Below, piece after piece: positions 9,536 to 20,905 of a stretch of 32,031 nucleotides of DNA. A program made the translations under genes and the position numbers. The stretch spans positions 1 to 32,031 of the forward strand of contig JALWRR010000010.1 of the NCBI GenBank assembly GCA_026993975.1. Reading direction: 5' to 3'. The stretch's first letter is position 1; every line of letters begins with the position of its first letter. This stretch comes from Promethearchaeati archaeon. Its GTDB lineage: Archaea > Asgardarchaeota > Njordarchaeia > Njordarchaeales > Njordarchaeaceae. The notes under the pieces are model-generated. The model was not told the DNA's origin and did not search any database. It was given only the letters and a program-made list of their open reading frames with translations.

Positions 9536-10903
9536 TTGTTAATAAGGCATATATTATCACCCTTAATCACAAGACAGTACACTAAGTGGTACTACTTAAC
9601 TAGAAGTTGGAGAAAAAAAGATTGGAGAAACTGGGTGGCAGAAGAATTTGAGCGCGCTAAGAAATCAAGATGGACTCTGAAAAATTTCCCAGATTTAAAG
9701 GATGTGTCTTTTGAGGATCTACCAAGCTACCCAATTACTGAGAGGTATATTGAGGCTCCTTCAAACTACCCTACTTACTTAAGTTACTATAGCTCTGGAA
9801 CAATAGAAAGAAAGATAATTAGATTATCTAAGGATGATTTGAAGCGGATTTTTCTAGGGATTGGGAGAATAATTTGGACTGGTAAGAATGAAGCTAAGTT
9901 CAAGAACGGTCTATACATGGGTTTCTTTGGCCTTGGATCTGGAGCGATAGTTCATTACGCAACATACCTACTTTCTAACAAGGGAATCTATGTTAATGCT
10001 GGAGACTGGAGAAAGCATAAAAGGGAGATAATTAAGAATGCTCCATACGACTTATTGATACTGCCTTTGCCTTATTACGCTGACTTTATTCTGAATTTTG
10101 AGCATGATATTTATGATGGATTATCTTACTGGATTGTGAGTGGGGATTTATTTACGGAGTATCTTCGCTCGCTTCTAATTAATAAGAGCCAGAGAATGAA
10201 TAAAATTTTCTATGCTGTGGATTTCTATGGCGCGTCAGAAGTTTTTCTTCTAGGAACTGAGATACCTCCTTTCATAACTAAGGCTATTCAGTATGCTCCA
10301 GAAACAACAATAATCTTGCTGAAGAAGGAAGATGGTGAAATTGTTAACTTGTTTGATGCAGATCCTGGGGATCGAGGGGAAGTATTAGTTACTCCATTAT
10401 TTAATTACACTGTTCCGAATTATCCCCTCCACGATATAATCGAGGTAGAAGAGACTGAAAGCAAATTCGGGCTACCTACATTCAGGATCTTAGGACGTAA
10501 AGGTATCCGAGTCGATATAGAGCTTGAATCGCTCGGGCACATTAAGGGGTGGTACTCGATTTATGCACGTATAATGGGTATAATTATTGATGGAAGCGCT
10601 CTTAACGATTTAATTGGAAGAATATTTAATAGTGATCACATAACTTTTGTAGAACAAAGAAACGCAAAAATACATGTTAGAATCTATGTTAATAAGCGAA
10701 TAAATTACGATGATTTTATTAACGCTTTAAAAAACAATAATAGAACCAAGTATTTATATAATGATATAATAAATCACTTAGTATATATTGAAGTAATATA
10801 TAATCCCCAATTAATTAATGAAATCGAAACCAAATATTATGAAAAATTCGGCCCGCAAGCCACGATTCCAAGACTCATAATAGTGGAAAGTGAATCCTCA
10901 TGA
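9536..10903 (+). CDS. divergent PaaK-like adenylate-forming enzyme (AMP-binding superfamily)
   Basis: 455 aa; YYSSGTIERK (degenerate P-loop-like A3), DFYGASEVFLLGTE (A5-like), GEVLVTPLFNYTVPNYPLHDIIEV (A7-like), ILGRKG (A8-like). Confidence 0.68.
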   Translation: MLIRHILSPLITRQYTKWYYLTRSWRKKDWRNWVAEEFERAKKSRWTLKNFPDLKDVSFEDLPSYPITERYIEAPSNYPTYLSYYSSGTIERKIIRLSKDDLKRIFLGIGRIIWTGKNEAKFKNGLYMGFFGLGSGAIVHYATYLLSNKGIYVNAGDWRKHKREIIKNAPYDLLILPLPYYADFILNFEHDIYDGLSYWIVSGDLFTEYLRSLLINKSQRMNKIFYAVDFYGASEVFLLGTEIPPFITKAIQYAPETTIILLKKEDGEIVNLFDADPGDRGEVLVTPLFNYTVPNYPLHDIIEVEETESKFGLPTFRILGRKGIRVDIELESLGHIKGWYSIYARIMGIIIDGSALNDLIGRIFNSDHITFVEQRNAKIHVRIYVNKRINYDDFINALKNNNRTKYLYNDIINHLVYIEVIYNPQLINEIETKYYEKFGPQATIPRLIIVESESS

Positions 10904-11984
10904 TACAATTAATTCTAGTGATAGCTGCAATCTTAATGATAATTCCACTAATACTTGGTTTCAGGTTAGTAAAAGATTCTTATGAAAGATTTAATTTATG
11001 GCCATTCCTATTGAATGAATTTATTGTTATTCTAGGTATACTATATATTGTTTTAACTATTGCGGGAAACCTAGCTTGGAACGCTTATATGGCTTTCATA
11101 TTTTTTAATGCATCATTAATAATAGCTAATGCCATAATAATACTCACCTATATTTATTTCCGCGCTCTAAGAACAGAAACCATTAATGCTTTAATCTCCC
11201 TCCTTTGCATACTCCTTTTTTCATTCAAGATAATTGCTCTCTATATCGATCCAATAAAAGTGTTTACCGGAAATGAACATATATATATCTCCGAAGCGCT
11301 CACCTAACAATCCTAGCTTTAATCTCACCTATCATATTAATAGGATTAATTCTTTATGAAGCAACTATGCTCTATCTTAATGCTAGATACGACTCTAGAA
11401 GAAGACCCTACGCTAGTAAATTAATGTTAACGTATATCTTAGTGATAGTTATAGTTCCCTTCTTTTATTTTGGATTCGAATCCTTGTATGTATCAGTCCT
11501 TATTCCCTATTTACAGGGATTTATCCTGAGTATCATAGCTTTATCAATTTCCATTTTATTTCACCGTGACCCAAGTAAACTCGTTTTAATTCCAATACAT
11601 ATTAACGGCTTCCTACTACACACGTATGGGGGCTTAGCAATACTAAGGAAAGCTTTCAGCGCTGATTTCGAGAGTGCTGTGGCGCTCTCCTCCGCACTAG
11701 TTGCATCTATAATTGGTTTAGAATCAGCTATCGTGGGGCGTGAGAAAAAGAATTTTTACATGGTTCATAAACTCATGAAGATTGTTATTATAATGTATTT
11801 TGGTAATTTCGTGGTAGGGACTATCGTGGCTAATAAGGATAATATTGTTCTTAGAGATATTCTTAGGAATATTGTTAGGGAATATGAGGATAGCGTAGGT
11901 TCTGTTGATGAGGGAATGATAACCAACAGGGAGATTGATAAGGCTATGGAGATTCTAGATAACTGGAAGGATTTCTTGTATTAA
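10900..11984 (+). pseudogene. 7-TM-like membrane protein with C-terminal roadblock/longin-like domain, split by a frameshift into ORFs 10900-11307 and 11367-11984
   Basis: Frame 1 ORF ends at 11307. The frame of the second ORF is open from 11277 and encodes ...HLTILALISPIILIGLILYEATMLYL directly upstream of its ATG. Loss of one AT unit from (AT)5 at 11279-11288 restores a 360-aa ORF, matching the 356-aa paralog at 19835-20905. Confidence 0.75.
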
Positions 11985-16853: not shown

Positions 16854-18599
16854 ATGAGTAATTACTCTGAATTGAAACTGAGACCTAGGAAGTATCAGAT
16901 AAAAGCTAGTGAAATAGCTCTAAGTAACAAAAAGACAGTAATAGTTATGCCTACAGGAACAGGCAAAACTCTTATAGGATTGATGTGGGCTAAATCTCTT
17001 CTAGATAAAAAGAAAGCTAGAAAAATCCTTGTGCTTGAACCCACAAGAATTCTAGTTGAGCAGGTATCAGCTTTTTATAAGAAAGTTTCTGGCCTAGACA
17101 CGGGAGCTATCCATAGTATGATGCCTGAGGAATCAAAACGAAGAGGCTGGTTATCAAGAATAGTTGTTACTACTCCTGAAGAGATCCTATTCAATATGGA
17201 TAAGCTCGATTCTTTCGATGCCATCGTCATCGATGAATGCCATCACTCTGTGGGAGAAGATGCTTATAAGAAAGTTTTAGAAGCAAGCACTGCTGAGTGG
17301 CGATTAGGTTTATCAGCTCATATCCCTAAGAGGCATAGAAAAAGCATTGAGAAACTGATTGGGAGGATCTATGAGTGGAGTACTAGTGATCCAGATATAT
17401 CGAGATATATTCCCGATTGGATTGGCGAAGTTTATGAATGCCCTCTAGATAATGCTTCTTTCAAAGTATATAAGCTCCTAGAGAAGGAGTGGCTTAATTC
17501 TGATCGAAGAGAGAAAATACTGTATGGTTTAGCTCTAAGATTCTTGTCACGGGACGGTGCTTTAGCTCTAAAAGAGAGCCTAAGCAAGAAAACTAAACTA
17601 GCGTCCCTCTTAAGTAAGTATAAGCAAGATATATTGAGACTACCAGATCTACATAAGCTCGATAAATTAAATAAAGCAATAGATCAACATGATTTCGAGA
17701 AAGCAATAATATTTGTGGATAGAGTGATCGTAGCAAGGAAACTAAAAGAGTTATTTCAGGGATACGATACAGTAGTTATAACTGGTAAGAGGAGAAACGG
17801 GGATAGAGTTATTAAGCAGGCATTAGAGCTTGCTAGGAGGAAAGAAACTAGGATAGTTATATCAACTTCAGCCGGTGAGGAAGGGGTTGATTTACCTAGT
17901 GCAGATCTGCTAGTTCTCTGGAGTAATGTTGTTAGTCCATTAAGATTTATACAGCGGCATGGGAGAATATTAAGGAAAACCAAGCCAGTTAAATTCGTTG
18001 TTTACCTAGTTACACCTAACACGATTGATATGAACGCATTCCTGGATTCAGTTTATCTAGCTAAAAAAGTGGGAGTAGATATAAATATCTCTAATGAATC
18101 ACTGAGAGACTACTTAATGCGATCCCCTAGAGCAATCTTGTTAAGCGCTCTGGAAAACCCACTCCCAAGAGAGTTCATCCAGGAAGTGACTGGACTTGGA
18201 GCAAGTGAAGTTCAGAGAGCATTAAGACTTTTCTTTGAGCAGGGAGAATTATTCTACGTATATACACCGCTTGGAAGAACAATCGCTAAACCAGAGCACA
18301 TCCCGATTCTCTATGAGAAATACCCAGAATACTTTAATCCCGAGAACATTCAGGGGAAAGTAGTGATCATTCTAGATTCAAGAAAAAAAGTTTTTCAAGG
18401 CGATTACAAATCAATAATAAACACGCTTACTAAGTTTCTAGGTAGATTCAATGGATTAAGAATCACTTTAAGAGAGAACATTGATTCAATTGAGTATGTT
18501 TATTCTCTCTCATATAACTTCAGGATAAAGGAGAGAGAAGTGTTAGAAATAGTTCTAAAAAATGCATTCACTAAAACCGTATTCACAGAGTATGGCTAA
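16854..18599 (+). CDS. SF2 helicase, Hef/RIG-I-like, no nuclease domain
   Basis: MPTGTGKTL (I), VVTTPEE, VIDECHH (II, DECH), GLSAH (III), ISTSAGEEGVDLPSADLLVLWSNVVSPLRFIQRHGRILRK (V-VI). Confidence 0.88.
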   Translation: MSNYSELKLRPRKYQIKASEIALSNKKTVIVMPTGTGKTLIGLMWAKSLLDKKKARKILVLEPTRILVEQVSAFYKKVSGLDTGAIHSMMPEESKRRGWLSRIVVTTPEEILFNMDKLDSFDAIVIDECHHSVGEDAYKKVLEASTAEWRLGLSAHIPKRHRKSIEKLIGRIYEWSTSDPDISRYIPDWIGEVYECPLDNASFKVYKLLEKEWLNSDRREKILYGLALRFLSRDGALALKESLSKKTKLASLLSKYKQDILRLPDLHKLDKLNKAIDQHDFEKAIIFVDRVIVARKLKELFQGYDTVVITGKRRNGDRVIKQALELARRKETRIVISTSAGEEGVDLPSADLLVLWSNVVSPLRFIQRHGRILRKTKPVKFVVYLVTPNTIDMNAFLDSVYLAKKVGVDINISNESLRDYLMRSPRAILLSALENPLPREFIQEVTGLGASEVQRALRLFFEQGELFYVYTPLGRTIAKPEHIPILYEKYPEYFNPENIQGKVVIILDSRKKVFQGDYKSIINTLTKFLGRFNGLRITLRENIDSIEYVYSLSYNFRIKEREVLEIVLKNAFTKTVFTEYG

Positions 18600-19642
18600 G
18601 AAACTGCCCGTAAACCCCTCCTTCTTACCGCTCTATACACAATTGTAATAAGATTATAGGCAATAATAATGAACCCAAGAATAATCGTTATAAAGAACAT
18701 GCCAGCGATAAATACATATGCTATATTACTTATTAGAGAGAAAACTATCACTAGAATGAAAACCAGTATGTAAAATCTCAGTAAATCACTAAACTTGAAT
18801 AATTCCCCTAATTCTCTTTCCTCCCCTTTAAATGAATCCTTATCGAGATAAATCCCCATAAACAGAATCAAGTAAATTAGAATCGTTAGCATAATAGTGA
18901 TCGGCCCCGGAATCTCACCTGGTCTAACCACGAAAAAGAATAATATGTAGAGAAACGCTAGATAAGCAATCATGATAACTAGACCAATTTTACCCACAAT
19001 TAAATTATCTAAAGAGATTGTCTCTCTATCCATTCTCTTAATAATGAGATAGATCAAGGTGATGAGAGCTAGAGATCCAAAAAATCCAGAAGCACTAATA
19101 AAGAGGTTCCCTCCCGAATTAAGAGCTAGAGCTGAACCAGCGAAAAGAATTAGGAAAACATAGAAAAATAAGGAGACCTTGTTCTTAATGATCAATAAAT
19201 CAATATTACATGAATCCTCGTTACCTAAGTGCATTGAAAGTATCTTTATGGTGATTAACGGAGCGATAAAAGACATGAATGGATGCCAAATAAAACTAAC
19301 TATACTCATCTCTGCTACAGCAAAGCCCAGAGGTGTACCAAGTATCGGTTTCCCAGAATCACTAAACCCAGCCCAATCAACCTTCGTCATCCATGTCTCA
19401 TAGAGACCGAAAATAACACCGAATAAGTAGAGGGATCTCGGGGAGGTCCTGTTGACTCTCACTGCAATATTAAATAATACGAGCAAATGAAACATGTATA
19501 AGGGGAGTAGAAAGATGTATCCGAATATATCAGAGAACCATAGAATCGATGAACCAGATAAAACTTCTGCGTAGAATACAGAAAGTAATCCAGCCAGTAG
19601 TAATAACAGAAGTTTCGGGATCAAACGCATAAGTTTCACCAA
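18596..19642 (-). CDS. multi-spanning membrane protein of unknown function
   Basis: 348 aa, about 9-10 hydrophobic segments by eye; FGLYETWMTKVDW and WHPFMSFIAPL segments. Confidence 0.75.
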   Translation of the reverse strand: MVKLMRLIPKLLLLLLAGLLSVFYAEVLSGSSILWFSDIFGYIFLLPLYMFHLLVLFNIAVRVNRTSPRSLYLFGVIFGLYETWMTKVDWAGFSDSGKPILGTPLGFAVAEMSIVSFIWHPFMSFIAPLITIKILSMHLGNEDSCNIDLLIIKNKVSLFFYVFLILFAGSALALNSGGNLFISASGFFGSLALITLIYLIIKRMDRETISLDNLIVGKIGLVIMIAYLAFLYILFFFVVRPGEIPGPITIMLTILIYLILFMGIYLDKDSFKGEERELGELFKFSDLLRFYILVFILVIVFSLISNIAYVFIAGMFFITIILGFIIIAYNLITIVYRAVRRRGLRAVS

Positions 19643-19834: not shown

Positions 19835-20905
19835 ATGATTATTCAATACATCCTACTATTAATCATGCCTGAGTTATTATTTAGCTTCATCATAAGCCTT
19901 AAAAGCTTTATGAAGCATGGTTACTTATCTCTACTATACGATTCCTTAACATCTCTGTTTCTGGAACTAGCGTTGATTTCAGAAGTATTAAGTTACTATG
20001 TTAACATGAGAATTTTCATTCTTAGTAGATACGTCGTTCTAAACGCTTTCCTAAGAACAACATTCATCGTTCTTGGATTCATATCCTGGATCTTCTCAAT
20101 AAACTACTTAACAAGCAACAAGATATCGAGACTAATACATATTGTAACATTTATAGGTGGCGGCGCGGTAATAGCTTCATTATTCGAGACTGATCTATTC
20201 TCCTCACTAGTCCTTGCTGTCGTGGAGATAGCTGGATTAGCGTTAATAGGAATTGTTATTGCGAGACACTTAATATTCAGCATGAGACAGTTAAGGGCGA
20301 GAAGAAACATGAAGTATCACTGGATATATTTCCTAGGAACACTCACGTTCCTATCAGGATTATCAATCTTGATTATAAATGGTTTATTAGTGTACGTCTC
20401 AATACCTTTAGTGGATTTCCTAGAGGTAATCGCGATAGCATTATTGTTCACCGGTTACTTAGGAGTCATGATGATCTCTGGATTATACCCACACATGCTA
20501 TTAACAACATATATAAGACCATACAGCTTGTTCCTAGTAACAACTGGAGGAGAAACATTCTTCAAGTACTCTTTTAGAGCTGGAAGAGAAAGAGTTGATC
20601 CAGAGTTGGTTGGTTCAGCAATGACTGGAATTTCAATGATGACAAGTGAGATCATTGGAAAAAACATACCGATGAGACTAATTGAGCATGAAGCATTCTA
20701 CATAATAATGGCCCATGGAGAAAAAATATTGGGTTTCCTCTTCACGGACAAGATGAGCAAAATACTTAGCGAGAGCTTAGATAGATTAATAAAAGTAATA
20801 GAATCAAAATATATGGATTATATAGGAGACATCGTGTTAATGGATGAGAAGATCCAGAAAGAAATGGAAAAAGACACAGAGGAAGCATTCTATTACTTAA
20901 TCTAA
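19835..20905 (+). CDS. 7-TM-like membrane protein with C-terminal roadblock/longin-like cytosolic domain
   Basis: 356 aa; about 7 hydrophobic segments, then FLVTTGGETFFKYSFRAG...ELVGSAMTGISMMTSEIIG...IEHEAFYIIMAHGEKILGFLFTDK...LDRLIKVIESKY. Confidence 0.75.
   Translation: MIIQYILLLIMPELLFSFIISLKSFMKHGYLSLLYDSLTSLFLELALISEVLSYYVNMRIFILSRYVVLNAFLRTTFIVLGFISWIFSINYLTSNKISRLIHIVTFIGGGAVIASLFETDLFSSLVLAVVEIAGLALIGIVIARHLIFSMRQLRARRNMKYHWIYFLGTLTFLSGLSILIINGLLVYVSIPLVDFLEVIAIALLFTGYLGVMMISGLYPHMLLTTYIRPYSLFLVTTGGETFFKYSFRAGRERVDPELVGSAMTGISMMTSEIIGKNIPMRLIEHEAFYIIMAHGEKILGFLFTDKMSKILSESLDRLIKVIESKYMDYIGDIVLMDEKIQKEMEKDTEEAFYYLI

Follow-up and report, generated by a model that had tools for sequence, protein, structure and literature searches.

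What kind of protein joins a set of membrane-spanning helices to a small soluble tail in an Asgard archaeon, and what might such a fusion do? The question is raised by P0001, a 356-residue 7TM-longin protein whose gene occupies positions 19835..20905 (stop codon included) on the forward strand of the window, the whole 32,031-nucleotide stretch of DNA analysed here (contig C10 in an assembly of 216 contigs and 2.3 Mb). The gene is defined by its open reading frame, read from an ATG start codon, by its translation, and by full-length relatives elsewhere. A first-pass annotation had described about seven hydrophobic segments followed by a soluble tail, and both hydropathy and AlphaFold2 agree with that description. 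It is very likely that P0001 consists of seven transmembrane helices and a longin domain.

The seven-transmembrane half spans residues 2-217 (19838..20485, +) with its N-terminus outside, as delineated by AlphaFold2 helices, hydropathy, the positive-inside pattern and conserved polar and aromatic positions. Simple hydropathy segmentation of P0001 yields seven helices. The full-length AlphaFold2 model, built on a five-sequence alignment (mean pLDDT 72), places the same seven at residues 2-28, 31-55, 69-93, 99-116, 121-155, 159-188 and 193-217, with a soluble domain behind them, and adds a short beta hairpin in the loop from TM2 to TM3. Exactly seven hydrophobic segments precede the tail in 40 of 49 aligned family members, and in 39 of these 40 the loops after TM1, TM3, TM5 and TM7 are the richer in lysine and arginine (totals of 408 versus 142). 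This excess of positive charge indicates that the tail is cytoplasmic. Conserved polar and aromatic positions lie inside the bundle, for example Glu131 (codon 20225..20227, +), an acidic residue within TM5 whose alignment column in the close subfamily holds Glu in 13 and Gln in 2 of 17 sequences. All 21 strong matches of that subfamily have a longin tail joined to the 7TM half. Pfam and NCBIfam searches with P0001 came back empty even at an E-value of 1, and PDB sequence searches with full-length, tail and TM profiles returned nothing convincing. None of these resources assigns the protein to a characterised receptor family or to a transporter family.

The soluble tail is about 125 residues long, and its longin domain covers residues 229-351 (20519..20887, +). 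The assignment comes from a tail-only model compared with the PDB by Foldseek, from the full-length model and from a tail profile. In both models, DSSP gives the order b-b-a-b-b-b-a-a around a five-stranded sheet, which is the longin order; the tail-only model was again built from five sequences (pLDDT 75, pTM 0.71). Longins make up nearly all of its neighbours in the PDB. Foldseek yields 16 matches below an E-value of 1e-3, all to longin-type subunits, including AP-2 sigma (E 4.9e-5), other adaptor subunits, COPI and TRAPP subunits and Fuzzy, and Ykt6 comes next at 1.1e-3. The best superposition of this predicted model is with Sec22b (TM-score 0.73/0.77 over 133 columns, 2.9 Å). Strand/helix order and fold of the model are those of the eukaryotic longins, among them Sec22b, Ykt6 and VAMP7, the AP sigma and mu subunits, Bet5, Trs23 and sedlin of TRAPP, and the first longins of Fuzzy and Mon1.

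The sequence itself is a poorer guide. P0001 gives no significant Pfam longin match and stays below the curated cut-off. The tails of its relatives come close to the Pfam FUZ/MON1/HPS1 first longin (at best 25.6 bits, where the cut-off is 26.1) and weakly match Sybindin and the INTU/CCZ1 first longin as well, so that a resemblance to the FUZ/MON1 and Sybindin families is seen at the level of weak profile matches. Positions conserved across 57 sequences are G239, F247, D255, L258, E272, I283, G295, L302, F322, E323 and Y326. Since a curated Pfam cut-off is an aid to recognition and lies outside the definition of the fold, the longin label is given by fold only: the tail is, as modelled, a longin domain with weak sequence support. 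A longin-type SNARE was considered and rejected. SNARE longins lie N-terminal to a SNARE motif and other eukaryotic longins are subunits of soluble complexes, whereas the longin of P0001 is C-terminal to seven helices, and the protein ends five residues past the last longin helix with no SNARE motif behind it.

The first-pass annotation had placed the tail in the roadblock/longin class. The superfold was right, and it can be narrowed to longin; the roadblock label is disfavoured by strand/helix order and by fold scores. Roadblocks differ from longins in having one more helix ahead of the common core and one less after it (PMC10933270). That the tail is a roadblock and not a longin is hardly tenable: although its profile aligns with Asgard roadblocks over the common bb-a-bbb core (hhalign probability 50, E 1.6e-4) and 5 of 57 tails weakly match Robl_LC7 (best 0.013), the models lack the N-terminal helix of a roadblock domain, end in two C-terminal helices as longins do, and superpose more poorly on MglB and the MK-D1 roadblock (TM 0.39-0.44 by query length) than on the best longins (0.6-0.73).

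A second 7TM-longin gene lies in the same window at 10900..11984 (+), broken into two open reading frames (10900-11307 and 11367-11984) by one frame change; profile matches, shuffles and intact relatives support it. The reading frame changes at an (AT)n run at about 11279..11288 (+), as seen in the sequence and its three-frame translation. Its repaired length had been put at 360 residues, which fits an intact 361-residue paralog on contig C204 of the same genome (42% identical to it) and intact copies of the same type in a further genome, G001. Its longin tail (11580..11894, +) had been reported as co-linear with that of P0001. This is borne out by a Smith-Waterman score of 70 between the two tails, where 1000 shuffles gave a mean of 29.9, an SD of 5.6 and a maximum of 55. 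A longin-tail profile built without the second protein and without the C204 paralog scores them at 31 and 43 bits respectively; among 1000 shuffled sequences the highest score is 7.3. In whole-genome searches the second protein is found by the tail profile at E 9e-8 and by the full-length profile at 5.8e-8. P0001 is only 16% identical to the C204 paralog, and in a pairwise comparison of their tails 21 of 1000 shuffles reach the observed score, so that this pair is not clearly distinguishable from chance. As judged from sequence, the second protein is a true though distant paralog of P0001. The findings that would have spoken against the original description, namely a tail that is a coiled coil or a membrane segment, membership in a known transporter family, or the lack of a profile match between the two tails, were all looked for and none was found.

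The idea of a paralog family was correct: two copies had been noticed in the window, and profile searches with contig reads count seven 7TM-longin genes in the genome, two on C10 and one each on C5, C127, C204, C152 and C117. The C152 gene is included because its product resembles the second window protein; the tail profile does not find its tail. Directly upstream of it (L159:218-1845) is a gene for a 146-residue soluble protein that is longin-like by eye and is missed by the tail profile, and it is possible that the two products form a longin heterodimer.

Beyond this genome, a search from a five-row alignment returned four named relatives, one of them a Thorarchaeota record. A relative of P0001 in Candidatus Njordarchaeota isolate M288 (JAHQWF010000124.1, G004 C129), which is congeneric with the genome of the window, is 62% identical over 340 residues. 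The full-length profile has matches at E 1e-5 in 140 of 148 Asgard genomes, many of which represent the tail on other architectures. Of the 393 genomes searched, 136 have a match at 1e-12, and every one of these carries a label of the phylum of the window or closer; kinship labels were read mainly for matched genomes, and the family is likely absent outside the Asgard phylum. The close subfamily, in which the 7TM half is similar too, comprises 21 strong matches in 19 genomes of families f1-f3 (Njord-type), f6 and f15. It is found in Njord- and Thor-type genomes, with looser relatives across Asgardarchaeota. The 7TM-longin proteins are a multi-copy family of Asgard archaea.

The tail profile also matches many unrelated membrane and soluble architectures, whose other domains were described by eye. 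The tail is C-terminal on helical-repeat proteins and N-terminal on soluble proteins with extra domains. The same genome encodes a soluble longin (L188) and proteins combining a longin with helical repeats (L189, L190 and L196). At one set of loci (L012, L019, L020, L023, L024, L027, L028), inspection by eye finds the tail at the end of Asgard proteins with about 12 helices (roughly 740-770 residues), and also at the end of proteins with a large extracellular-looking region and one helix (roughly 760-810 residues). In two further proteins of the same genome, L193 (C172) and L194 (C101), the order seen in P0001 is inverted: the longin comes first and a membrane bundle follows. Eukaryotic SNARE longins are arranged in this way too, but neither protein has an obvious SNARE motif.

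Gene neighbourhoods differ between subfamilies. Downstream of P0001 lies an MFS gene (21076), and the M288 relative of P0001 adjoins an aconitase gene; synteny is thus loose. Directly upstream of P0001 and divergent from it, 18596-19642 (-) encodes a 348-residue multi-helix membrane protein with no Pfam match. At Thor-type loci (L149-L154) a D-2-hydroxyacid dehydrogenase gene often lies 3′ of the 7TM-longin gene (4 of 7 fetched loci), and one or two secreted parallel beta-helix proteins of roughly 1200 residues are often encoded downstream as well. Reading of neighbours showed no GTPase or roadblock gene adjoining P0001 or its closest relatives. Elsewhere in the genome, on C127, a Rab/Roc-type GTPase gene lies next to a roadblock gene (L156:1736-2754), about 6 kb from the 7TM-longin gene there.

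The second protein of the window belongs to a different arrangement. Its start is overlapped by the 3′ end of a gene at 9536..10903 (+) for a 455-residue divergent adenylate-forming-like protein, recognised as a neighbour, by homology searches and by motifs in the alignment. These are the SSGT motif with a downstream K, and the GE and T motifs, of adenylate-forming enzymes. One member of this family of about 455 residues matches PF00501 at 0.028 and another matches BagE_FevW at 9e-4; PDB searches gave no match. The enzyme class, adenylate-forming-like, is accordingly named as a tentative one. Among 10 homologous Njordarchaeales loci with readable neighbours, the gene adjoins one for a longin-bearing protein at 8 (9536-11984, L157:345-2797, L156:7198-9829, L210, L212, L213, L214 and L215), where the two are side by side, overlapping at several loci, or divergent. 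The pair is a conserved functional one in Njordarchaeales. The partner goes with the subfamily of the second window protein, an arrangement apart from that of P0001.

What the fusion may do is suggested by the company that longins keep. Longin and roadblock dimers are described in parts of PMC10933270 as platforms for small GTPases, as in TRAPP, Mon1-Ccz1 and MglB, and the same passages report that Asgard GTPases are often fused to longin or roadblock domains and generally lie outside operons with their partners. The genome of the window encodes 12 Roc-type small GTPases and 7 roadblock proteins, as a check for co-occurrence proposed at the outset has confirmed. In the most likely reading, the 7TM bundle would sense or bind something in or outside the membrane. 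The longin domain would form a homodimer, or pair with a different longin or a roadblock protein, and would provide a membrane-fixed platform that recruits Ras-like small GTPases. Such a platform may activate or inactivate them, as a GEF or a GAP would. A membrane-fixed longin together with a seven-helix bundle bearing a conserved TM5 acid is what points to a sensor or a receptor-like anchor for a GTPase. The whole proposal, an Asgard 7TM sensor with a longin platform for Ras-like GTPases, is given a probability of about 0.45. Taken separately, the longin as a GTPase platform is a tentative assignment made by analogy, and true ligand sensing by the 7TM half is somewhat more doubtful again. Counting against the platform are the lack of a GTPase or roadblock neighbour, the lack of a significant Pfam longin match in P0001 and the five-sequence basis of the models. 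It also counts against the platform that longins have roles in SNAREs and coats that involve no action on GTPases.

The main rival takes the 7TM half mainly as an anchor. The longin would then be a SNARE- or adaptor-like organiser of membrane sites (budding, protrusions, protein sorting) that binds trafficking-type proteins without receiving a signal. SNARE longins and adaptor subunits are indeed among the best structural neighbours of the tail, the tail is shared by many membrane and soluble proteins of otherwise unrelated architecture, and longins are also found on Asgard ESCRT-type proteins (PMC10936438). One helix would suffice for an anchor, however, and here all seven helices are conserved together. 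Their conserved intramembrane polar residues, such as Glu131, would be needless for anchoring. A SNARE motif is missing, and P0001 stops right after its last longin helix. This explanation is considered unlikely, if by less than those that follow.

A transporter or channel, gated by the longin or linked by it to the trafficking machinery, is improbable. Seven-helix bundles are known among transporters too, the TM5 acid could carry protons or ions, and an MFS gene follows the 7TM-longin gene at C204 as it does in the window. Yet the close subfamily matches no transporter family, and the MFS neighbours are not kept in Thor-type loci. Descent from a photoreceptor, with the 7TM half as a degenerate microbial rhodopsin, is very improbable: the full model finds cryorhodopsins by Foldseek (E 0.007, TM up to 0.50) and shares with rhodopsins and GPCRs the seven helices, the N-out/C-in topology, the hairpin after TM2 and a loose fold resemblance, but TM7 has no retinal lysine, the superposition has an rmsd of about 7 Å at 13% identity, and profile comparison with Asgard rhodopsins gives a probability of 0.1. 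Bac_rhodopsin has no match in the genome, and the likeness, seen in a predicted model, is one of topology only. Neither GPCRs nor rhodopsins show profile similarity to P0001, and no evidence points to coupling with a heterotrimeric G protein. HisKA_7TM kinases and other 7TM input modules likewise set seven helices before a cytoplasmic output domain, although in HisKA_7TM the output is a kinase and in P0001 a longin. HisKA_7TM was rejected as an identity for the 7TM half, there being no match in the genome and no sequence or profile similarity (hhalign probability 0.1).

For the sensor with a longin platform, the nearest known systems are the longin, roadblock and GTPase-fusion proteins of Asgard archaea and the MglB-type roadblocks, which share the phylum, the superfold and a proposed role as GTPase platforms (parts of PMC10933270). 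The Asgard proteins covered in those parts are soluble or fused to GTPases, with no 7TM fusion mentioned there, and the MglB type has roadblock helix order where P0001 has longin order. Asgard longins are known and numerous, as portions of PMC10933270, PMC9834061 and PMC10936438 report, and the longin domain of this family may already be counted in asCOG. A 7TM-longin fusion was not found described in the open-access literature, a scope outside which most subscription papers and all preprints fall.

The 7TM-longin family bears on a wider problem. Small GTPases, roadblocks and longins are numerous in Asgard archaea, and this family is a concrete candidate for an input to that GTPase network. 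With it, the localisation and switching of Asgard GTPases can be approached directly, by assays of binding and nucleotide exchange. The family would also be evidence that longins have been joined to membrane proteins in several arrangements in the archaeal phylum closest to eukaryotes. A bolder extension, which must be called decidedly unlikely at present, is that Asgard-wide 7TM receptors signal directly to Ras-like GTPases through a built-in longin, with some Njordarchaeales members paired with an enzyme that possibly makes or modifies the signal. If true, this would be a pre-eukaryotic counterpart of receptor-to-G-protein signalling, assembled from trafficking parts.
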